Assembly: GCF_021730305.1 (NCBI RefSeq)
Contig: NZ_CP032674.1
Location: 3,147,001 to 3,211,000 of the forward strand
DNA from: Xanthobacter sp. YC-JY1
GTDB lineage: Bacteria; Pseudomonadota; Alphaproteobacteria; Rhizobiales; Xanthobacteraceae
DNA: 64,000 bases
Direction: 5' to 3'
Position 1 is the stretch's first letter. Each line of letters begins with the position of its first letter. The notes beneath the pieces are model-generated. The model saw only the letters and a list, made by a program, of their open reading frames with translations, had not been told where the DNA came from and made no database searches. The position numbers and the translations under genes were made by a program. Below are positions 42,774-59,160 of the stretch, one piece after another.

Positions 42774-43054
42774 GCCCTGGGCGCCACGGCGACAATCCCG
42801 CCATGGCAAGGGCTTGGCCCGGGTTACGGTAGCAGCGAACCTCGCTTTCGCGTGCAGCGCGGCAGAAATGCGCGCCATTCTTGCGCCAGATCAAATTTCG
42901 TTGGCTTTTCGGATAGATACGGATGCTTCCGCACCCGTAGAGACCCGGAATTGACCCCCTCGGAGCGCGGACCTTAGCTGCGGCCATTCGCACCTGCGAA
43001 ATGCAGCGTCCGGCCTGCCGAAACCGTTGGGCCGGCTAAAGACGGGAGCCCGTC

Positions 43055-45370
43055 ATGGCCGCCGACACGCCCGCCCCCTCCCCCTTCCAGAACCTGCTGC
43101 CGTTCGACCCGAATGCCGCGATGTCGGCGTTCCAGAAGGGACTTTCACGGGCCTTCAACCCACCGTTCGGGGCCGGTTCGGTGACGATTCAGTCCGGACC
43201 GCTCGGCGCCTACCTGGTGGACGCCGCCCAGCGCCATGTCCTTTTCCTCGATCTCCTCCGCCGGAGGGGGAACGAGCAGCACGACATGACCTCCCACCCC
43301 ATGGCGACGGTGCTCACCTTCGACCATGAGGTGCTGGTCAGCGGGCGGGCGCTGCCGCGACCGATCAACTACTCCCTCTCCCGCATCGTCCCCCCGCCGG
43401 GTGTCGCGGTGGACCCGCGGAAGCGGCCGGTGGTGGTGGTGGACCCGCGCGCGGGACAGGGACCGGGCATCGGCGGGTTCAAGACCGAGAGCGAGATCGG
43501 CGAGGCGCTGGGCACCGGGCATCCGGTCTACTTCATCGGCTTCGCCTCCGAGCCGGAGCCGGGGCAGACCTTTCTCGACGTCGTGGAAGGGCAGGTCACC
43601 TTCTTCGAGCGCATCCGCCAGATGCACCCGGAGGCGCCGCCCGCCTTCGCCATCGGCAATTGCCAGGCCGGCTACCAGACCTTGATGGTGGCGATGCTGC
43701 GGCCGGAGCTGTTCGGCCCCTGCATGGTGGCGGGCTCGCCCATGTCCTACTGGCAGGGCGTGCACGGCAAGAATCCCATGCGCTATTCCGGCGGCCTGCT
43801 CGGCGGCTCGTGGCTGACCAACCTCGTCAGCGACCTCGGCGGCGGCAAGTTCGACGGCACCTGGCTGATCCTGAACTTCGACAATCTGAACCCGGCCAAC
43901 TGGCTGTGGGGCAAGCAGTATGACGTCTGGTCGAAGGTGGACACCGAAGGCCCGCGCTATCTCGAGTTCGAGAAGTGGTGGGGCGACTTCATCAAGCTGA
44001 ACGGTGACGAGATCCAGTTCCTGGTGGACGAGTTCTTCATCGGCGACAAGCTCACCCGCAACGAGGTGCGCTCCACCGATGGCAAGGTGTTCGACCTGCG
44101 CAACATCTCCTCGCCGGTCATCGTCTTCACCTCGCAGGGCGACAACATCTCCCCGCCGCCGCAGACGCTGGGCTGGATCCTCGACCTCTACAAGGACGTG
44201 GACGACATCCGCGCCGAGGGCCGCACCATCGTCTATTGCATGAACCAGAAGGTGGGCCACCTCGCCATCTTCGTCTCGGCCAAGGTCGGGGCGAAGGAGG
44301 ATGAGGAGCTGGTGCGCCTCATGGACCTCATCGACTGCCTGCCCCCCGGCCTCTACGAGCTGGTCATCGAGCCCGCCTCCGAAGAGCAGGTGAAGGCCGG
44401 CGGCCCGGCCTGGCATTCGCGCTTCGAGCTGCGCTCGCTGGACGACATCCGCGCCTATGGCCGCAACAGCGTCGAGGATGACCGCGCCTTCGCCGCCGCC
44501 CGGCGGGTGTCGGAGATCAACCACTCGCTCTACCGCACCTTCCTCCAGCCGGCGGTGAAGGCGATGGCGACGCCGCAGCTTGCGGATGCGCTGTTCCGCT
44601 TCAATCCGCTGCGGCTCTCCTACTCCCTGTTCGCCGATGCCAACCCGCTCATGAAGGGGGTGGAGAAGCTCGCCGCCGAGGTCACCACGGCCCGCAAGCC
44701 GGTGGACGCTTCCAATCCCTTCGTCACGGCACAGAACTTCTGGTCCGACCAGATCAACGCCGCTCTCGACGGCTGGCGCGATGTGCGCGACCGGGCGGTG
44801 GAGCAGACCTTCTTCGCGGTCTATGGCTCGCCGGTCCTTCAGGGGATGCTGGGCCTGAACATCCAGGAAAAGGTGCGCGAGCTGCCGGCCAACAGCCCGC
44901 AAAAGGAAGCCTTCCGCGATCGCAAGATCGCCGAGTTCCGCGCCCGCGTGGCCGAAGGTGGCTTCAACGAGGCGCTGGTGCGCGCCTCGCTCTACGTGCT
45001 CTCGGTGACGCGCGCCATGGACGAGTCCGCCGCGCGCTCGCTCAACGAGGCGCGCCAGAAGCTCACGCAGCTCTCCCTGCCCGAGTTCAAGACGCTGGTG
45101 CGCGACCAGTTCTACATCCTGCTCCTGGAACGGGAGACGGCGGTGGAAGCCATCGCTCATCTGGTCACGGGCCCGGGCCAGCGGCAGGAGTTGGTGAACA
45201 CGGTGGCGGGCGTCGCCACGGCGGATGGCGCCTATACGCCCGGCGAGCGGGTGCTGGTGGAGCGCCTTGCCGACCTTCTCGGCGTCTCGGCGCCGAAGAA
45301 CGTGGCGCTGGCGGCGGTGAACACCGCGCCGGCCCCCGTTTCCGGCCAGAGCCTCCCTGCAGCCGTCTGA
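43055..45370 (+). CDS. DUF3141 domain protein with alpha/beta hydrolase (PHA synthase-like) core
   Basis: A 771-residue protein. The central alpha/beta hydrolase domain (about 120-420) carries a lipase-box-like GNCQAG with C203, an aspartate D363 in FTSQGDNISPP and a histidine H402 in QKVGHLAI; these fit the Cys-Asp-His triad and spacing of PHA synthases, whose fold DUF3141 shares. The last 50 residues (VNTVAGVATADGAYTPGERVLVERLADLLGV) look like a TerB-type helical segment. No signal peptide. It is followed by a MaoC-phosphotransacetylase, acetate kinase and P-type ATPase, a set that recurs beside DUF3141 in other proteobacteria as far as I recall. Its reaction is not known. Confidence 0.88.
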   Translation: MAADTPAPSPFQNLLPFDPNAAMSAFQKGLSRAFNPPFGAGSVTIQSGPLGAYLVDAAQRHVLFLDLLRRRGNEQHDMTSHPMATVLTFDHEVLVSGRALPRPINYSLSRIVPPPGVAVDPRKRPVVVVDPRAGQGPGIGGFKTESEIGEALGTGHPVYFIGFASEPEPGQTFLDVVEGQVTFFERIRQMHPEAPPAFAIGNCQAGYQTLMVAMLRPELFGPCMVAGSPMSYWQGVHGKNPMRYSGGLLGGSWLTNLVSDLGGGKFDGTWLILNFDNLNPANWLWGKQYDVWSKVDTEGPRYLEFEKWWGDFIKLNGDEIQFLVDEFFIGDKLTRNEVRSTDGKVFDLRNISSPVIVFTSQGDNISPPPQTLGWILDLYKDVDDIRAEGRTIVYCMNQKVGHLAIFVSAKVGAKEDEELVRLMDLIDCLPPGLYELVIEPASEEQVKAGGPAWHSRFELRSLDDIRAYGRNSVEDDRAFAAARRVSEINHSLYRTFLQPAVKAMATPQLADALFRFNPLRLSYSLFADANPLMKGVEKLAAEVTTARKPVDASNPFVTAQNFWSDQINAALDGWRDVRDRAVEQTFFAVYGSPVLQGMLGLNIQEKVRELPANSPQKEAFRDRKIAEFRARVAEGGFNEALVRASLYVLSVTRAMDESAARSLNEARQKLTQLSLPEFKTLVRDQFYILLLERETAVEAIAHLVTGPGQRQELVNTVAGVATADGAYTPGERVLVERLADLLGVSAPKNVALAAVNTAPAPVSGQSLPAAV

Positions 45371-45465
45371 GCCGGGAAGACGGGCGCGGCGCATCCCCCG
45401 CGCCGCGCCCGCCACGTCCTTTGCCTCGCCATCCCTGCCTGCGACGCGCCCGAGGAGGCCTGTTC

Positions 45466-46827
45466 GTGCCCACCATCGCCAATCGGCTGTTCGCGGACAT
45501 CAAGACGGGCGACCGCGCGTCCGCCATCCGCACCATACGCACGCCGGACCTGCGCGCCTGGGGCGCGGCCTTCGGCGATGCCGGAATCATCGCCGGCGTC
45601 GGGGCGGGTCAGGCGGATGCCGGCCTTGCCGCCTCCCTGTTCGCCGCTCTGGTGGGCACCGCCCTGCCCGGCCCCGGCGCGACCATCCGCGCCTCCAGCG
45701 TGAGCATCGCCGCGCCGCTGCCGGCCGACGTGCCGCTCACCGTCTCCCTTGCCGTCCGCGAGACGAACGCGGCGGACCGCACGCTCGGCCTCGACGGCGA
45801 GATCGCCGCCCCCTCCGGCACCATCGTCGCCACCGCCGCCATCACCGTGACAGCGCCCGACACGGCCATCAGCGTCAGCGTGCCCGAGCACCGGCTGGAG
45901 GCGCTGCTGGAGCGCTGCAAGGGGCTCGATCCCCTGCCCACCGGCGTGGTCCATCCCTTGAGCCTCGATGCCCTCTCCGGCGCCCTCGATGCGGCGGCGG
46001 CGGGGCTCATCCAGCCGGTGCTGTTCGGGCCGGAGGCGGACATCCGCCGCATCGCCGCGTCCGGCGGCCTCGATCTTTCCGGCGCGCGCATCGTCTCCAC
46101 CACGAGCGAGGAGGAGTCCGCCGCCAAGGCCGCCGCCGCGGCTGGCGCGGGCGAGGTGGGGGCGCTCATGAAGGGCAGCCTTCACACCGACGTGCTGCTC
46201 CATGCGGTGATGGCGAAGGAGGCGGGGCTGCGCACCGGCCGACTGCTGAGCCATTGCGCCATCATGTCCGTGCCCACCTATGCCCGACGCGTGCTGGTGA
46301 CGGATGTGGCGCTCAACATCGCGCCCGACACCGACCAGAAGCGCGACATCTGCCAGAACGCCATCGGCCTGGCGAAGGCGCTGGGCATCGAGACGCCCAG
46401 GGTCGCGGTGCTGGCGGCGGTGGAGATGGTGCACACCAAGATGCCCGCCACCCTCGACGGCGCCATCCTCTCCAAGATGGCTGACCGGGGCCAGATCGTC
46501 GGCGGCATCGTGGACGGACCGCTCGACCTCGACGCGGCGGTGGATGCCGCGGCGGCGAACGTGAAGCACATCGTCTCGCCCGTCGCCGGCACGGCGGACG
46601 TGCTGCTGGTGCCCAACATCGAGGCCGGCAACATGGTCTACAAGAATCTCGGCTTCATGGCCGATGCCCAGTCCGCCGGCCTCGTGGTCGGCGCCCGCGT
46701 GCCGGTGATGCTGACGAGCCGCGCCGACAGCGCGGAAGCCCGGCGCTTCTCCGCCGCCGCGGCGGTGATCTACGCCGACGCGCTCAAGCGCGCCCCCGAC
46801 GCCATCCTTCCCCACGCCGCCGACTGA
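45466..46827 (+). CDS. Bifunctional MaoC-like / phosphate acetyltransferase (PTA/PTB) protein
   Basis: A 453-residue fusion. The N-terminal 130 residues resemble a MaoC hotdog hydratase (NRLFADIKTGDRAS ... LVGTALPGPGATI), but the usual catalytic SGDxNPxH stretch is shortened to FGDAGIIAGVGAG, so hydratase activity is doubtful. The C-terminal part is a phosphate acetyl/butyryltransferase (DPLPTGVVHPLS, SLHTDVLLHAV, ILSKMADRGQIVGGIVDGP, VLLVPNIEAGNMVYKNL). It would make acyl phosphate from acyl-CoA and feed the kinase 11 bases downstream. The start is GTG because GAGGAGG lies seven bases upstream. The kinase pairing suggests ATP formation from acetyl-CoA or propionyl-CoA. Confidence 0.9.
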   Translation: MPTIANRLFADIKTGDRASAIRTIRTPDLRAWGAAFGDAGIIAGVGAGQADAGLAASLFAALVGTALPGPGATIRASSVSIAAPLPADVPLTVSLAVRETNAADRTLGLDGEIAAPSGTIVATAAITVTAPDTAISVSVPEHRLEALLERCKGLDPLPTGVVHPLSLDALSGALDAAAAGLIQPVLFGPEADIRRIAASGGLDLSGARIVSTTSEEESAAKAAAAAGAGEVGALMKGSLHTDVLLHAVMAKEAGLRTGRLLSHCAIMSVPTYARRVLVTDVALNIAPDTDQKRDICQNAIGLAKALGIETPRVAVLAAVEMVHTKMPATLDGAILSKMADRGQIVGGIVDGPLDLDAAVDAAAANVKHIVSPVAGTADVLLVPNIEAGNMVYKNLGFMADAQSAGLVVGARVPVMLTSRADSAEARRFSAAAAVIYADALKRAPDAILPHAAD

Positions 46828-46838
46828 GCGAGGCTGCC

Positions 46839-48020
46839 ATGACCGACGCCGTTCTGGTCGTCAATTCCGGCTCCACCAGCCTCAAGTTCGGCGCCTATGG
46901 GACGTCGAACGTTAAGGACCCGCCGCTGCTTTGCCGAGGCGGCATCGACAGCATGGCGGGGGATCCGCACTTCATCGCCAAGGAGCCCGACGGCAAGCCC
47001 ATCGACGCCCACGAATGGGGCTCCGGCCACGCCCTGAGCCACAAGGAGGCGCTGGGCTACATCGTCCAGTGGCTTGAGCAGCACGAGGCCAACATCAAGG
47101 TGGTGGCGGCCGGCCACCGCGTCGTGCTCGGCGGCACGCGCTTTGAGGGGCCGGCGAAGATCACGCCCGAGGTGCTGGACTATCTCGATGGCCTGTCCGC
47201 CATGGAGCCCTCCCACCAGCCGTTCAACGTGCGCGGCGCGCGGGCCATCGCCGAGGCCTTCCCCGGTTTGCCGCAGGTGGCGGTGTTCGACACCTCCTTC
47301 CACCGCACCATGCCGGAGGTGGCGCAGATCTACGCCTTGCCCAAGGCCGTGCGCGACACCGGCGTGCGGCACTGGGGCTATCACGGCATCTCCTACGACT
47401 ATATCAGCCGGCAGGTGCCCAAGGTCGCGCCCGGCGCGCGGCGGGTCATCGTCGCCCATCTCGGCGGCGGCGCCTCGGTCTGCGCCATGCTGGATGGCAG
47501 GAGCGTCGAGACATCCATGGCGTTCGCCGGCCTCACCGGCCTGCCCATGGCAACCCGCTCCGGCGACGTGCCGGCCGACGTGATCTTCTATCTGCTGCGC
47601 TCCGCCGGCTACACCGCCGAGGCGCTGGAAAAGCTGCTCTACGGCCAGTCCGGCCTGCTCGGCCTTTCCGCCGACAGCGCCGACATGCGGGTGCTGCAGG
47701 ACAGCGCGGCGGCCGACGACAGGCTGGCGGTGGACTATTTCGTCACCAGCCTCGTGAAGTTCATCGGCGCCTATGCGGCGGTGCTGGGCGGGCTCGATGC
47801 GCTCGTCTTCACCGCCGGCATCGGCGAGAACTCAGCCAAGGTGCGCGCCGCCGTGCTGGAGCGCCTCGCCACCTTCGGCCTCACCCTCGATCCGGCGGCC
47901 AATGCCGCCAACGGGCCGCGCATCACCACGGCGGACAGCGCCGTCGCGGCCTTCGTGATCCCCACCAATGAAGAACTGATGATCGCCCAGCACACGCTGG
48001 CGCTCACCCGTTCCGCCTGA
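46839..48020 (+). CDS. ackA: Acetate/propionate family kinase
   Basis: A 393-residue acetokinase of the ASKHA fold. It shows LVVNSGSTSLKF at the N-terminus, DTSFHRTMP with the catalytic aspartate and arginine region, RHWGYHGISYDYIS, VAHLGGGASVCAM and FTAGIGENSAKVR. It reversibly converts acyl phosphate and ADP to the free acid and ATP. It follows the phosphotransacetylase gene after 11 bases, so the pair forms a complete acetyl-CoA/acetate module. Substrate could be acetate, propionate or butyrate; the sequence alone does not decide. The gap to the P-type ATPase gene is 14 bases. Confidence 0.94.
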   Translation: MTDAVLVVNSGSTSLKFGAYGTSNVKDPPLLCRGGIDSMAGDPHFIAKEPDGKPIDAHEWGSGHALSHKEALGYIVQWLEQHEANIKVVAAGHRVVLGGTRFEGPAKITPEVLDYLDGLSAMEPSHQPFNVRGARAIAEAFPGLPQVAVFDTSFHRTMPEVAQIYALPKAVRDTGVRHWGYHGISYDYISRQVPKVAPGARRVIVAHLGGGASVCAMLDGRSVETSMAFAGLTGLPMATRSGDVPADVIFYLLRSAGYTAEALEKLLYGQSGLLGLSADSADMRVLQDSAAADDRLAVDYFVTSLVKFIGAYAAVLGGLDALVFTAGIGENSAKVRAAVLERLATFGLTLDPAANAANGPRITTADSAVAAFVIPTNEELMIAQHTLALTRSA

Positions 48021-48034
48021 CCGGGAGAAGTCCA

Positions 48035-50638
48035 ATGGCACAGAGCGCAGCCCGCATTGCCGCCCCCGCGCCGGCCGAGGCCCCGGCCGCGAAGCCGGCG
48101 GCGTCCTCCGGCGGGCCCGTCCGGCTCGACGCGGCGGCCATCTCCGCCAAGTTCACCGAGCTCGGCTCCTCGCCCAAGGGCCTCACCGCCACGGAGGCGG
48201 CCGAACGGCAGGCGAAATACGGCCCCAACGCCATCGTCGCCCATGAGGACAGCCGCTGGGAGAAGCTGGTCGGCTATTTCTGGGGGCCGATCCCCTGGAT
48301 GATCGAGGCGGCGGCGCTGCTCTCCCTCATCCGCCAGGACTGGCCCGATTTCATCGTGGTGATGGGCCTGCTCATCTACAACGCCATCGTCGGCTTCTGG
48401 CAGGACAGCAAGGCCGCGAGCGCGCTGGCGGCGCTTAAGAAGGGCCTCGCGCTCAAGGCCCGCGTGCTGCGCGACAACAAGTGGATGACGGTGGACACCG
48501 CCGCCCTCGTGCCCGGCGATGTGGTGAGCGTCGCCGGCGGCGAGACCCTGCCCGCCGACATCCTGCTCGTCGAGGGCAAGTATCTCTCCGTCGACCAGGC
48601 GGCGCTGACGGGTGAATCGCTCCCCGTCTCCAAGGGCGTGGGCGACAGCGGCTATTCCGGCTCCATCGTGCGTCAGGGCACCATGACGGGTCTCGTCACC
48701 GCCACCGGCAATGCCACCTTCTTCGGCCGCACGGCGAAGCTCGTCGCCTCGGCGGGCGCCAAGTCGCACGCGGAAAAGGCGGTCATCCAGATGGGTGACT
48801 TCCTCATCATCCTCTCCGCCGCACTGGCGCTGGTGCTGGTGGTGGCGCAGGTCCACCGCGACATCATCGCCGACGGGCATTGGGAGTGGCAGCACGCCGG
48901 CGCCATCGTGCAAATCGTGCTGGTGCTGCTGGTGGCCTCCGTGCCGGTGGCGACGCCGGCGGTCATGTCCGTGACCATGGCCCTGGGCGCGCTGGCGCTT
49001 TCCAAGCAGCAGGCCATCGTCTCCCGCCTCTCGGCCATCGAGGAACTGGCGGGCGTGGACGTGCTGTGCTCCGACAAGACCGGCACGCTGACGCTGAACC
49101 AGCTCACCCTCCAGACGCCCATCCCGTGGGGCAAGGCGGAGCCTGAAGATCTCATCCTCGGCGCCGCGCTCGCTTCCCAGCGCCAGAGCGACGACGCCAT
49201 CGACAAGGCGGTGATCGCCGCGGTGACCGACCCCAAGGTGCTCGACGGCTACAAGAGCGTGGACTTCACGCCCTTCGATCCCGTCAGCAAGAAGACCGTG
49301 GCGAGCGTCGCCGGCCCGGACGGCAAGACCGTGCATTTCGCCAAGGGCGCGCCGCAGGCCATCGCCGCCCAGTGCGGCCTCTCGGAGGCCGATGCGAAGG
49401 GCTATTTCGACGCGGTGGAAAAGCTCGCCCGCAGCGGCACCCGCGCGCTCGGCGTCGCCCGCTCGGACGACGGCAAGACCTGGACGCTGCTCGGCCTCCT
49501 GCCCATGCTCGACCCGCCCCGGCCCGATGCGGCGGAGACCATCGCCAAGGCCAAGGCGCTCGGCGTCTCCGTGAAGATGGTGACGGGCGACGACGTGGCC
49601 ATCGGCGGGGAGATTTCCCGCCAGCTCGGCCTCGGCGACCATCTGCTGGTCGCGAGCGACGTGTTCGGCCAGGATTCCGGCCCCGAGCACATCGCCATCG
49701 ACGCCGCCCGCGCGGTCGAGGTGGCCGACGGCTTCGGCCGCGTCTTCCCCGAGCACAAGTTCCAGATCGTGAAGGCCTTGCAGGAGCGCGGCCACATCGT
49801 CGCCATGACCGGCGACGGCGTGAACGACGCGCCCGCCTTGAAGCAGGCCGATTGCGGCGTCGCCGTCTCCGGCGCCACGGACGCGGCCCGCAGCGCCGCG
49901 GCGCTCATCCTCACCGCGCCGGGGCTCTCCACCATCATCAACGCCATCATGGAGGCGCGGGCGATCTTCGAGCGGATCACCAGCTACATCTACTACCGCA
50001 TCGCCATGACGCTGAACATCATGCTGGTGGTGGTTCTGGTTTATCTGGTCTACGACTTCATGCCGCTCACCGCGATCATGATCGTCGTCATGGCGTTGCT
50101 TGACGACATCCCGATCATGACCATCGCCTATGACAATGTGAAGGTTCAGGACAGTCCGGTGCGCTGGAACATGCAGCGCATCCTCTCCTTCTCGACCATC
50201 ATGGGCATCATGGCGCTGGTGCAGAGCTTCGGCATCGTCATGCTCGGCATGTTCTGGATGAAGAGCCCGGAGCTGATGGCGCGCCTGCCCATGGACCTGT
50301 CGCACATCCAGACCATGCTGTTCCTGCAATTGTGCGCCGGTGGACACCTCCTGTTCTTCGTCTCGCGGGTGCAGGGCACGCTGTTCCGCCCGCCCTATCC
50401 CAGCCTGCCCGTGCTCGCGGCGGTGATGGGCACGCAGGTGTTCGCGATCTTCATGTGCGCCTTCGGCTGGTTCATGCCGGCTCTGCCGTGGCTGCTCATC
50501 GGCGTGGTCTGGGCCTACTGCCTCGTGTGGACGCTGGTGATGGATCTCGTGAAGGTCATCTACTTCCGCTTCGTGAATGCGCGGGAGCGGCGCCAGAGCC
50601 GCATCGATGCGCCCATAGGGCAGGCCATGCCGGGGTAA
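48035..50638 (+). CDS. Plasma-membrane proton-efflux P-type ATPase (P3A type)
   Basis: An 867-residue cation-transport ATPase. The phosphorylated aspartate D347 is in SDKTGTLT; TGES lies at 192-195, the ion site region VPVATPAV at 303-310, and the hinge MTGDGVNDAP later. Ten membrane segments are likely. Length, lack of N-terminal metal domains and general pattern place it with plant/fungal-type proton pumps (TIGR01647) and not with calcium or heavy-metal pumps. The N-terminal 30 residues are alanine/proline-rich. It uses ATP to extrude protons across the inner membrane, and it is 14 bases after acetate kinase, so the two are likely co-expressed. The long C-terminal regulatory domain of plant pumps is absent. 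Confidence 0.92.
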   Translation: MAQSAARIAAPAPAEAPAAKPAASSGGPVRLDAAAISAKFTELGSSPKGLTATEAAERQAKYGPNAIVAHEDSRWEKLVGYFWGPIPWMIEAAALLSLIRQDWPDFIVVMGLLIYNAIVGFWQDSKAASALAALKKGLALKARVLRDNKWMTVDTAALVPGDVVSVAGGETLPADILLVEGKYLSVDQAALTGESLPVSKGVGDSGYSGSIVRQGTMTGLVTATGNATFFGRTAKLVASAGAKSHAEKAVIQMGDFLIILSAALALVLVVAQVHRDIIADGHWEWQHAGAIVQIVLVLLVASVPVATPAVMSVTMALGALALSKQQAIVSRLSAIEELAGVDVLCSDKTGTLTLNQLTLQTPIPWGKAEPEDLILGAALASQRQSDDAIDKAVIAAVTDPKVLDGYKSVDFTPFDPVSKKTVASVAGPDGKTVHFAKGAPQAIAAQCGLSEADAKGYFDAVEKLARSGTRALGVARSDDGKTWTLLGLLPMLDPPRPDAAETIAKAKALGVSVKMVTGDDVAIGGEISRQLGLGDHLLVASDVFGQDSGPEHIAIDAARAVEVADGFGRVFPEHKFQIVKALQERGHIVAMTGDGVNDAPALKQADCGVAVSGATDAARSAAALILTAPGLSTIINAIMEARAIFERITSYIYYRIAMTLNIMLVVVLVYLVYDFMPLTAIMIVVMALLDDIPIMTIAYDNVKVQDSPVRWNMQRILSFSTIMGIMALVQSFGIVMLGMFWMKSPELMARLPMDLSHIQTMLFLQLCAGGHLLFFVSRVQGTLFRPPYPSLPVLAAVMGTQVFAIFMCAFGWFMPALPWLLIGVVWAYCLVWTLVMDLVKVIYFRFVNARERRQSRIDAPIGQAMPG

Positions 50639-50666
50639 GGAGAGAGCCCCTCTTTGCCTTTGCACC

Positions 50667-50936
50667 ACCGTCATCGCCCGGCTCGTCCGGGCGATCCACG
50701 GTCAGGCCGGGGCGGGTCTTCCGGCATCGCGCGAGCGGATGGGTGGATCGCCCGGACAAGCCGGGCGATGACATCCGGGGAACGAGAGGCAGATGGCCCG
50801 GACCCCACCTGACGTGCCCCCTCTCCCCTTGCGGGAGAGGGTTGGGGTGAGGGGTGTGCCTCCGGCAGGACCGGCATCTGGGACTAACGGGCGGGCGCCC
50901 CCTCACCCCCGGCCCCTCTCCCGCGAGGGGAGAGGG
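50667..50936. repeat. Composite palindromic repeat, first unit of a 300-bp tandem pair (families A and B)
   Basis: The unit consists of a 103-bp element A (50670-50772, ends GTCATCGCCCGG and CCGGGCGATGAC) and a family B block (about 50818-50936), which begins CCTCTCCCCTTGCGGGAGAGG and ends with CCTCTCCCGCGAGGGGAGAGG, with GGGGTGAGGGG facing CCCCTCACCCC. All parts fold into strong hairpins. It lies in the 744-base gap between the P-type ATPase and xoxF genes; no gene is seen in the gap. Confidence 0.88.
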
Positions 50937-50965
50937 AAGGCATGTGTAAGCGGCTAGCCCCCTTC

Positions 50966-51240
50966 ACCGTCATCGCCCGGCTCGTCCGGGCGATCCACGG
51001 TCAGGCCGGGGCGGGTCTTCCGGCATCGCGCGAGCGGATGGGTGGATCGCCCGGACGAGCCGGGCGATGACACACAAAGGGGCGAATGCGCGGTTGGTTC
51101 GGAATGCGCCGGCACGCCCCCTCTCCCCTTGCGGGAGAGGGCTGGGGTGAGGGGTGTGCCTCCGGCAGAACCAGCATCTGAGACAAACGGACAGGCTTGC
51201 CCCCTCACCCCCGGCCCCTCTCCCGCAAGGGGAGAGGGGA
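50966..51240. repeat. Composite palindromic repeat, second unit of the tandem pair
   Basis: The same A + B arrangement as the unit before, displaced by 299-300 bases. The two A elements differ at only one base by eye; the B blocks differ at about ten to fifteen positions. It ends 142 bases before the xoxF start, so any xoxF promoter must lie in that short interval, within or upstream of these repeats. Confidence 0.88.
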
Positions 51241-57156: not shown

Positions 57157-59160
57157 TCAGCTCTTTTCGCGCACGTAGCGGCCGGGGGCGTCTTCGATGG
57201 GGGTGAAGTGGCCGCCGCCGATGGGGCGGGCGGGCACGTCCTCGGGATAATAGCTGGAGAACCAGGTCAGCCAGTCCGGCCACCAGGAACCCTTGTGCTC
57301 CTGCGCGCCCTGGAGCCACAGGTCGTAGCTCGGCCCGGTGGGGCCGTCGGCCCAGTACTGGTACTTCATCTTGGCCGGCGGATTGACCACGCCGGCGATA
57401 TGGCCCGAGCCCGCGAGCACGTAGCGCACCGGGCCGGAGAGCATGTTGGCGCCGATGAACACCGAGTTGGGCGGGGCGATGTGGTCTTCCCGCGTCGCCA
57501 GCGAATAGACCGGCACGTTCACCTTGGTCATGTCGATGCGCACGCCGGACAGCTCGGCGAGGCCGCGGGCGATGTTGTTGGTGAGGTAGCAGTTGCGCAG
57601 GTAATAGGAGTGGTTCGCCGCCGGCATCCGCGTGGAATCGGCGTTCCAGAACAGAAGGTCGAACGGGAACGGCGCCTTGCCCTTCATGTAGTTGTTCACC
57701 ACATAGGGCCAGATCAGATCGTTCGAGCGCAGCATGTTGAAGGCCGAGGCCATCTTGCTGCCTTCCAGATATCCCGTCTGCTTCATCTTCCGCTCGATGG
57801 CGGCGAGCTGGTCCTCGTCCACGAACACCTTGAGATCGCCCGCATGGGTGAAATCGATCTGGGTGGTGAGGAAGGTCGCGGAGGCGATGCGGTCATCCCC
57901 CGTCGCGGCCATGTAGGCGAGCGTGGTGGCGAGCAGCGTGCCGCCGACGCAATAGCCCATGGCGTGGGCCTGCCGCTCGCCGGTGGCCACCGCCACCTTG
58001 TCGAGGGCGGCCATGATGCCCTCGCGCATGTAGTCGTCGAAGCCCTTCTCGGCGAGGCGGGCATCGGGATTGACCCAGGAGATGACGAAGACGCTGATGC
58101 CCTGGTCCACCAGCCAGCGGATGAAGGACTTCTCTGCCGTCAAATCGAGAATGTAGAACTTGTTGATCCACGGCGGCACGATGAGCAGCGGCATCTTTTT
58201 CACGCTGCCGGTCGTGGCCTCGTACTGGATGAGCTGCATCAGATCGTTTTCGTAGATCACCTTGCCCGGCGTGGTGGCGAGGTTCCGGCCCACCTCGAAG
58301 GCGCTCATGTCCGTCTGGCGAATCTTGAGCGAGCCGTTGCCGGCGACGAGGTCCCGCGTGAGGTTCTTCATGCCGTTGACGAGATTCTCGCCGGACGACG
58401 AGAAGGTCTCGCGGATCAGCTCCGGATTGGTCATCACGAAGTTGGAGGGCGAGATGGCGTTCGTCACCTGCTTCACCAGGAAGCCGGCCTTGTGCTTGGT
58501 GTGGGCGTCGAGGCCCTCGGCCTGCTCCACCATCTCCTCGGCCCAGCGGGTGGTGACGAGATAGGCCTGCTTGAGCGCGTCGAAGATCGGGCTTTCGCGC
58601 CAGCCCTCGTCCTTGAAGCGGGCGTCCTTGGCGTCCGGCGCGGTCACCGGCTCGACCTTCTCGCCGCCGAGGCGCTTCAAGGTGTTGGTCCAGACCGAGA
58701 GATAGCCGGTCATGAGGCGCGTTTGCGCCTCCAGCGAGCGCTGGGGATCGGTCATCCAGTATTCGGCGACCTGGCCCACGGTCTTGAGGGCGTCGGCGAT
58801 CTCGTCGGCGAGGTCGTCGGTCTTGGCCTGGGTGCGCGGGCCGAGATAGGCGGCGAGCGCCTTGCTGCCCTCATCCACCATCTGCGCCAGATTCTGGGAG
58901 AAGGCCTCGATGTCGAGGCCGGAGCGGGCGCCTTCGCCCTTGCCGTCGCCGCCCTTGCCGTCAGCCTTGGACCCGGCGCCGGCCTTCGGCGCTTCCACCC
59001 TGGCCGCAGGGGGCGCTGATTCGGGCGCGGGATTCGGGGAGGTCTGGGCCGCGGGGGGGACGACGCTGAGATGCGCGGGGCCGCCCGCCGCAACCGGCGA
59101 TTCCACCGACATCATGGGGGCGGCGGCGGATACGTTCGGCGTTTCCTCAACACGGGACAT
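57157..59160 (-). CDS. phaC: Class I poly(R)-hydroxyalkanoate synthase
   Basis: The 667-residue polymerase has the PhaC N-terminal domain (about 140-310) and an alpha/beta hydrolase domain with lipase-like box GYCVGGT giving nucleophile C404, D559 (REDHIAP) and H587 (GSGHIAG). [12 protein letters not shown] and FVISWVNPD are class I signatures. It polymerises (R)-3-hydroxyacyl-CoA at granule surfaces. An N-terminal tail of about 80 residues is proline/alanine-rich and longer than in many members. No phaA, phaB or phasin gene is adjacent. The start is the only plausible ATG, and a family C repeat lies 75 bases after its stop. Confidence 0.95.

Follow-up and report, generated by a model that had tools for sequence, protein, structure and literature searches.

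A DUF3141, phosphotransacylase, acetate kinase-family and P3A H+-ATPase gene run in Xanthobacter, and the placement of bacterial P3A pumps beside predicted ATP makers

The locus and its four products

We analysed a stretch of 64,000 nucleotides (the window; NZ_CP032674.1, positions 3,147,001 to 3,211,000) from Xanthobacter sp. YC-JY1, whose genome measures 5.39 Mb. Between positions 43055 and 50638 of the window, four genes on the forward strand encode, in order, a DUF3141 protein, a phosphotransacylase, a kinase of the acetate/propionate family and a P3A-type H+-ATPase, with intergenic gaps of 95, 11 and 14 nucleotides. An earlier sequence-only reading of this DNA had reported four genes in one direction with just these gaps, and gene coordinates and family profiles bear it out. 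The comparisons below support two conclusions: that the four genes belong together, their grouping exceeding chance, and that P3A pump genes are placed non-randomly. In more than one lineage, and in differing gene orders, a pump has been joined either to the core formed by the other three genes or to another ATP maker.

The first gene (43055..45370, +), which is 93% identical in X. aminoxidans, encodes 771 residues matching the DUF3141 family (PF11339) at 842.5 bits. The protein reads as a PhaC-like α/β hydrolase followed by a long helical C-terminus, within which a TerB match is weak (residues 697-746, 28.6 bits). That it has the fold and catalytic triad of polyhydroxyalkanoate (PHA) synthases had been proposed from the sequence, and profiles, alignment and structure comparison support the proposal. 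The predicted triad, Cys203-Asp363-His402, is invariant in 39 of 39 aligned rows, corresponding to 35 distinct loci, with L033, L034, L035 and L039 lying on the same contigs as L008, L016, L007 and L009, respectively (L numbers denote the loci compared). When a structure model of middling confidence (mean pLDDT 66.6) was submitted to Foldseek, ranks 1 to 13 were all PHA synthases, the best with an E-value of 5e-5 and a TM-score of 0.52 over the target; a PDB sequence search at E 0.1 found no relative. Scores on two PhaC profiles are low (27.6 and 19.2 bits, the former against a cut-off of 365.3), the match to the TIGR01836 profile is weak, and no PhaZ model is among the profile matches at E 0.001. 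Excerpts of a review group DUF3141 with Cys-Asp-His PHA synthases, including the PHA synthase 5hz2 (PMC11878206), and excerpts of genome papers describe DUF3141 genes near phaCAB or named as phaZ (PMC8601165, PMC8050969). DUF3141 may load PHA or break it down. A PhaC gene (PhaC_N, class I type) lies 6.5 kb downstream of the run (57157-58998, −), so that DUF3141 is not needed as the sole PHA synthase of the genome.

The phosphotransacylase (45466..46827, +; 453 residues) consists of an N-terminal hotdog domain and a C-terminal phosphotransbutyrylase-like domain (PF01515). Its GTG start at 45466 is backed by orthologues beginning at the same residue; the frame scored from a TTG at 45421 exceeds the NF006045 cut-off (503.7 against 282 bits). 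By profile, sequence and fold the enzyme is nearest to phosphotransbutyrylases, not to Pta: it reaches 60.4 of the 311.2 bits demanded by the Pta model TIGR00651 and 299.8 of the 410.5 demanded by the phosphotransbutyrylase model TIGR02706, and it matches PDB entry 7vg9 both by sequence (225 bits) and by Foldseek (E 2.9e-20; mean pLDDT of the model 62.2).

The hotdog domain resembles the (R)-hydratase PhaJ1 (5cpg), weakly by sequence (E 8.6e-5) and also by Foldseek (E 6.7e-11), and Pfam MaoC is not listed among its matches at E 0.001. The catalytic motif of (R)-specific enoyl-CoA hydratases, D-x-N-P-x-H, is missing from the window protein, from eight readable orthologues (the L017 N-terminus reads out of frame and was left out of the count) and from the transacylases of Caballeronia, L067 and L075; those of L027 and L029 retain it. 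With the motif absent, the window domain is most likely a non-catalytic remnant and not a hydratase, so that the earlier MaoC call holds for the hotdog fold and fails for the activity. Fermentation of poly-3-hydroxybutyrate (PHB) to butyrate through hydratase, FabI, phosphotransbutyrylase and kinase was considered as the window pathway and rejected, the motif being gone and the run holding no fabI. Such a fermentation is possible for L027 and L029, where the motif is intact and FabI, transacylase, kinase, pump and PPK2 are all encoded.

The kinase (46839..48020, +; 393 residues) matches PF00871 at 338.9 bits and exceeds the TIGR00016 cut-off (324.6 against 293.4 bits). Alignment with the Methanosarcina thermophila acetate kinase 1tuu shows the active-site Asn, Arg, Asp, His, Arg and Glu all to be kept.

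The last gene (48035..50638, +) encodes a P3A-type pump of 867 residues that scores 901.1 bits on TIGR01647, well over the cut-off of 615.5; the model ends at residue 810. Asp347, the phosphorylation site, and Asp691 (AHA2 D684) are found in 45 of 45 aligned rows and Asn116 (AHA2 N106) in 44, in an alignment that has the window entered twice and the four duplicate-contig loci dropped. In AHA2, D684, N106 and R655 are tied to proton transport. The protein thus qualifies as a P3A H+-ATPase by profile and key residues, and H+ transport is predicted for it. Catalytic residues are intact in the kinase, the pump and DUF3141 alike.

The DUF3141-pta-ackA core

In a sample of 249 Pseudomonadota genomes, DUF3141 occurs in 14. 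Fourteen loci were fetched from the 13 of these other than our own, and in nine a transacylase and a kinase gene stand alongside DUF3141; DUF3141-pta-ackA is a recurrent core in several proteobacterial lineages. Six of the nine have fabI within the run and a seventh has it directly before DUF3141; fabI follows ackA in L065, L066, L068, L069 and L070. No FabI is found among the called window genes between 40508 and 56691, and L007, L008 and L016 yield no FabI match. Gene calls at the compared loci were chosen from two callers, one of them self-trained.

Sinorhizobium meliloti RCAM1115 carries DUF3141-pta-ackA-fabI in the same order and on one strand. We take this to be orfA-pta-ackA-fabI, which Summers, Denton and McDermott reportedly presented in 1999 as a phosphate-stress operon. 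The remark in the sequence-only reading that it knew of no described function for the set is corrected to that extent, for the three-gene core as seen in S. meliloti and on this presumed identity of the operon.

A longer run is found on a plasmid of Caballeronia sp. SBC2, where DUF3141-fabI-MaoC/PTA-ackA-H+-ATPase-PPK2 are encoded on one strand; DUF3141 as a family is found on 143 plasmid records. Transacylase, kinase and pump are also accompanied by FabI and PPK2 in L027 and L029 and by a 3-hydroxyacyl-CoA dehydrogenase in L028. L027 and L028 additionally encode a hydrolase of PhaC/PhaZ-like type whose nucleophile motif reads G-L-C-Q-G. Its highest profile score is with a PhaC model (120 bits, below that model's cut-off), and it passes the DUF3141 cut-off over a partial profile (67-76 bits). 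These matches argue that the hydrolase belongs to the PhaC/PhaZ/DUF3141 group as another branch of it and is not an unrelated family. With two PHA-type Cys-hydrolase branches beside transacylase, kinase and pump, a feed of acyl-CoA or PHA into the module is favoured.

Our own genome encodes two further DUF3141 proteins. One closes a paralogous run, pta-ackA-DUF3141, followed on the same strand by genes for an HlyD-type adaptor and an AcrB-type efflux pump (L005, 3161-12185); the other has no pta-ackA and is convergent to a CoA-transferase pair (L006, 8223-11870). A YflT-domain protein of about 190 residues is encoded 5' of DUF3141 in L013, L017, L022 and L024, and a relative of it near the L026 pumps.

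Placement of P3A pumps

Pumps were counted by a TIGR01647 match at E 1e-180 or better, our own genome included. On this basis the pump family is present in 9 of 249 genomes at phylum level, in 6 of 385 at class level and in 26 of 248 at family level, where 22 score above the curated cut-off, and in 4 of the 14 same-genus genomes listed. The 39 loci centred on a pump, none longer than 20 kb, include six with DUF3141, seven with transacylase plus kinase and 13 with PPK2. Of 34 genomes, 8 encode an acetate kinase no more than 5 kb from the pump, where 0.13 would be expected, and 12 a PPK2 at that distance (0.24 expected), 16 having one or both; the expectations assume genomes of 4.3 Mb on average and, like the P-values, ignore relatedness, and the count leaves out five of the 39 pump genomes (G652, G684, G748, G808 and G818).

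A tree built from 47 pump sequences places the window pump in a clade of 20 rows (support 91/90). Acetate kinase or PPK2 is encoded within 5 kb for 15 of these 20, compared with five of eight in the neighbouring clade, two of 12 in a divergent clade and none of six in a clade from family f24. Nine of the 20 rows entered by way of DUF3141 loci, and six of the nine (from L007, L008, L009 and L016) were found by the pump search as well. The tree and the promoter counts given below drop the duplicate-contig loci L033, L034, L035 and L039; the tree further drops L005, L006, L013, L014, L017, L021 and L074. The second P-ATPase of L037 (28% identity), placed on a very long branch, probably belongs to another family.

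Among 19 named DUF3141 relatives, several of them on short contigs, eight have a P3A-like pump at the locus (L007, L008, L009, L011, L013, which is cut by the contig end, L016, L018 and L025). The arrangements comprise DUF-pta-ack-pump, DUF-pump, DUF-pump-pta-ack and a pump divergent from DUF-pta-ack. The exact four-gene set is rare: besides the window, four of the 39 fetched pump loci have it (L033, L034, L035 and L037). That two rare families, pump and DUF3141, are linked in changing orders counts in favour of the reading put forward below.

Some further arrangements may be recorded here. Two P3A pumps of different subclades flank PPK2 and a CitMHS carrier in the Xanthobacter loci L008 (15321-22126) and L016 (15170-22128), and in L026 (8854-15557) two P-ATPases of different clades are oriented towards one another with a PPK2 gene between them. 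At G664:C1 1144773-1148156 and G624:C34 77522-80894, at a distance from the pump, some 1.5 kb separates a PPK2 gene from an acetate kinase gene, which again brings two possible ATP makers together. An exopolyphosphatase (Ppx) gene is convergent beside a P3A pump that lacks PPK2 in L032 (11193-12701, −).

Regulation and flanking sequences

A sequence fitting the well-known FixK/FNR box consensus, TTGCGCCAGATCAA (42881..42894, +), lies 174 nucleotides upstream of DUF3141 and is a candidate site for low-oxygen control. Three such boxes are found in the window against 1.81 expected, and the box is not significant alone. Across loci, enrichment is limited to operon-leading DUF3141 genes, a FixK-type box preceding 8 of these 32 and 46 of 736 other genes (p 6e-4, with relatedness ignored and upstream regions defined slightly differently in the two sets). 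The eight, in the window and in L007, L025, L037, L065, L066, L068 and L069, have the box 134-174 nucleotides before the first aligned residue. TTG-N8-CAA occurs at module promoters 18 times against 10.6 expected (p 0.023). The own genome encodes CRP/FNR-type regulators, one of them beside a gene that reads, by eye, like hemN. As proof of an oxygen response the boxes are weakened by their unremarkable window-wide count and by the promoter control described below; oxygen control through a FixK-type box is suggestive only. Excerpts of a study of microaerobic metabolism in Bradyrhizobium diazoefficiens report pta (blr3457) and ackA (blr3458) to be strongly induced in a phaR mutant (PMC10888616).

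Scans for sigma-70 promoters and terminators gave nothing above chance level. On the same strand, immediately 5' of the run, is a gene for a Tlde1-domain protein (PF10908, 41473-42732), which among 21 loci searched has a counterpart only in X. aminoxidans (L007). The gene 3' of the run encodes a dehydrogenase dependent on pyrroloquinoline quinone, beyond duplicated repeats. This duplicated block (50666-51234) has a spacing of about 300 nucleotides, with 108-nucleotide copies 99% alike and 119-nucleotide copies 80% alike, and is palindrome-rich by eye; a general repeat search showed it, whereas Tandem Repeats Finder reported no repeats downstream of the run.

A proposed feeding of the pump by substrate-level ATP

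We favour the reading that the module derives ATP from acyl-CoA independently of respiration and uses it to export protons, and give this a probability of about one half. The module would act in cells limited for oxygen or energy, once oxygen or respiration has failed. DUF3141 would perhaps free part of the acyl-CoA from PHB, as a Cys-type PHA thiolase or depolymerase or as a granule-bound acyltransferase. The transacylase would convert acyl-CoA to acyl phosphate and the kinase would use acyl phosphate to make ATP, which the pump would spend in expelling protons; this would sustain the membrane potential and relieve the cell of the acid that comes with making acetate. P3A pumps move one proton per ATP, and alphaproteobacterial F1Fo is kept from hydrolysis by its zeta subunit, an F1 inhibitor that the own genome encodes. 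A one-proton pump would act as a low gear: it could maintain a steep gradient even with ATP/ADP low, as a reversed F-type ATPase could not. In relatives with PPK2 beside the pump, PPK2 would be a further ATP maker and polyphosphate a second store feeding the pump. Gene content, linkage, reordered neighbours and intact catalytic residues are observed; which way the flux runs, that oxygen controls it, what DUF3141 does and that pump and ATP makers are coupled at all we infer. The sequence-only reading had suggested a set balancing acyl-CoA overflow with pH and energy control; its link to energy and proton control remains the best reading, while the four-gene set has not proved widespread.

A number of observations weigh against this interpretation. 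Our own is the only one of the 249 phylum-sample genomes with both pump and DUF3141, and no pump match of at least 80 bits lies beside any of the 14 phylum-sample DUF3141 loci, so that the core evidently works without the pump. Rarity of the genes as neighbours had been named in advance as a sign against the set; it was found for the pump (0 of 14 loci) and not for the three-gene core (9 of 14). Nearby genes for acetate kinase, PPK2 and DUF3141 are all absent from 16 of the 34 pump genomes. No FixK-type box precedes 24 of the 32 operon-leading DUF3141 genes, among them those of the Xanthobacteraceae loci L008, L009, L016 and L040. FNR boxes with up to one mismatch are not enriched at module promoters (8 against 8.9 expected from promoters of the same loci), and a box excess over whole-locus sequence vanished against those other promoters. 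For the S. meliloti operon the reported signal is phosphate, not oxygen; PPK2 enzymes may also run towards polyphosphate; and we know of no PHA activity of DUF3141.

A broader proposal, which we offer only tentatively, is that two granule stores, PHB and polyphosphate, could power the eukaryote-type P3A H+-ATPase directly, so that the membrane would be charged without respiration or reversal of F1Fo, and that horizontally mobile cassettes of pump and ATP maker might form a general survival device of bacteria. The PHB route would lead through DUF3141 or the PhaZ-like hydrolase, the transacylase and the kinase, and the polyphosphate route through PPK2.

The alternative that survives best, though still an unlikely one, is a defence against acid or acetate, in which the pump would serve cytoplasmic pH and remove the protons of acetate made by AckA-Pta; the trigger would be pH or acetate rather than oxygen and energy supply would be secondary. 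It gains from three Acidithiobacillus papers among the 12 listed as carrying the pump family name and from the Na+/H+ exchanger gene adjoining the kinase in L025. Yet the six-row f24 clade, from a family that we guess to be acidophiles, has no ATP maker nearby, unlike the window clade; the seventh f24 pump (L057) lies in another clade, with PPK2 2.1 kb away; and PPK2, where it adjoins a pump, yields no acetate.

We consider it quite improbable that the module is in essence a phosphate-stress operon, recycling phosphate and acyl phosphate under PhoB while the pump drives H+-coupled phosphate uptake. The presumed PhoB-controlled operon of S. meliloti speaks for this, as do PPK2 and Ppx neighbours and a PsiE-family protein beside one pump (L060). 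However, the best PHO-box-like site in the 500 nucleotides before the window operon has 6 mismatches in 14 positions, in a crude scan of low power, the S. meliloti operon itself giving no better than 5.

Reverse flow, with kinase and transacylase activating acetate or propionate to acyl-CoA for PHA, DUF3141 serving as an auxiliary synthase and the pump merely powering import, would accord with the PhaC-like sequence and fold of DUF3141, with the nearby PhaC gene and with the CitMHS-type carriers beside pump and PPK2 in L008, L016, L036 and L054. An ATP-consuming route next to an ATP-consuming pump would be uneconomical, however, and the L028 run is paired with a 3-hydroxyacyl-CoA dehydrogenase, as for oxidation; we regard this explanation as improbable. 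Loose clustering in a stress island, with shared regulation and no common flux, is suggested by gene content that differs widely among loci but is very improbable given the gaps of 11 and 14 nucleotides, the recurrence of ATP makers as partners and the Caballeronia run of six genes.

Relationship to known systems

The operon and the protein families are known; the combination, and the rule on where many bacterial P3A pumps sit, are new. No description of the combination was found among the best-ranked matches of the literature searched, a body that largely excludes subscription journals. P3A proton pumps are textbook enzymes of plants and fungi; the papers listed as carrying the family name deal with fungi, acidophiles and archaea, among other subjects. 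If our favoured reading is true, pumps wired to substrate-level ATP makers would explain what P3A pumps do in non-acidophilic bacteria. They would also offer a model, open to experiment, for the upkeep of membrane potential by respiring bacteria in anoxia, and a concrete hypothesis for DUF3141, a family that accompanies pta-ackA.

The window pump matches the family of AHA2 and Pma1, its best PDB match being AHA2 (5ksd). Plant P3A pumps carry a long C-terminal regulatory tail, which the window pump lacks, and the position of AHA2 Arg655 is occupied by Asn. DUF3141 shares with PhaC and PhaZ the α/β hydrolase domain with Cys-Asp-His and the weak TIGR01836 match, but falls far under the PhaC cut-offs and has an extra helical C-terminus.

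The low-oxygen-activated (lxa) locus of Burkholderia cenocepacia is similar in including a phosphate acetyl/butyryl transferase (BCAM0298), which, with phbB (BCAM0296), is named in excerpts of one study among lxa proteins rising during infection (PMC6127331). The S. meliloti run agrees with the window in the order of its DUF3141, transacylase and kinase genes and in having them on one strand, but there fabI lies 3' of the kinase and the transacylase, of 318 residues, has no hotdog domain. In the window the H+-ATPase gene stands where S. meliloti has fabI, and the transacylase carries a fused hotdog domain, from which the hydratase motif is missing. The Caballeronia sp. SBC2 run unites all four families of the window on one strand, its MaoC part likewise lacking the motif, and differs in its additional fabI and PPK2 and in the terminal-oxidase genes nearby.

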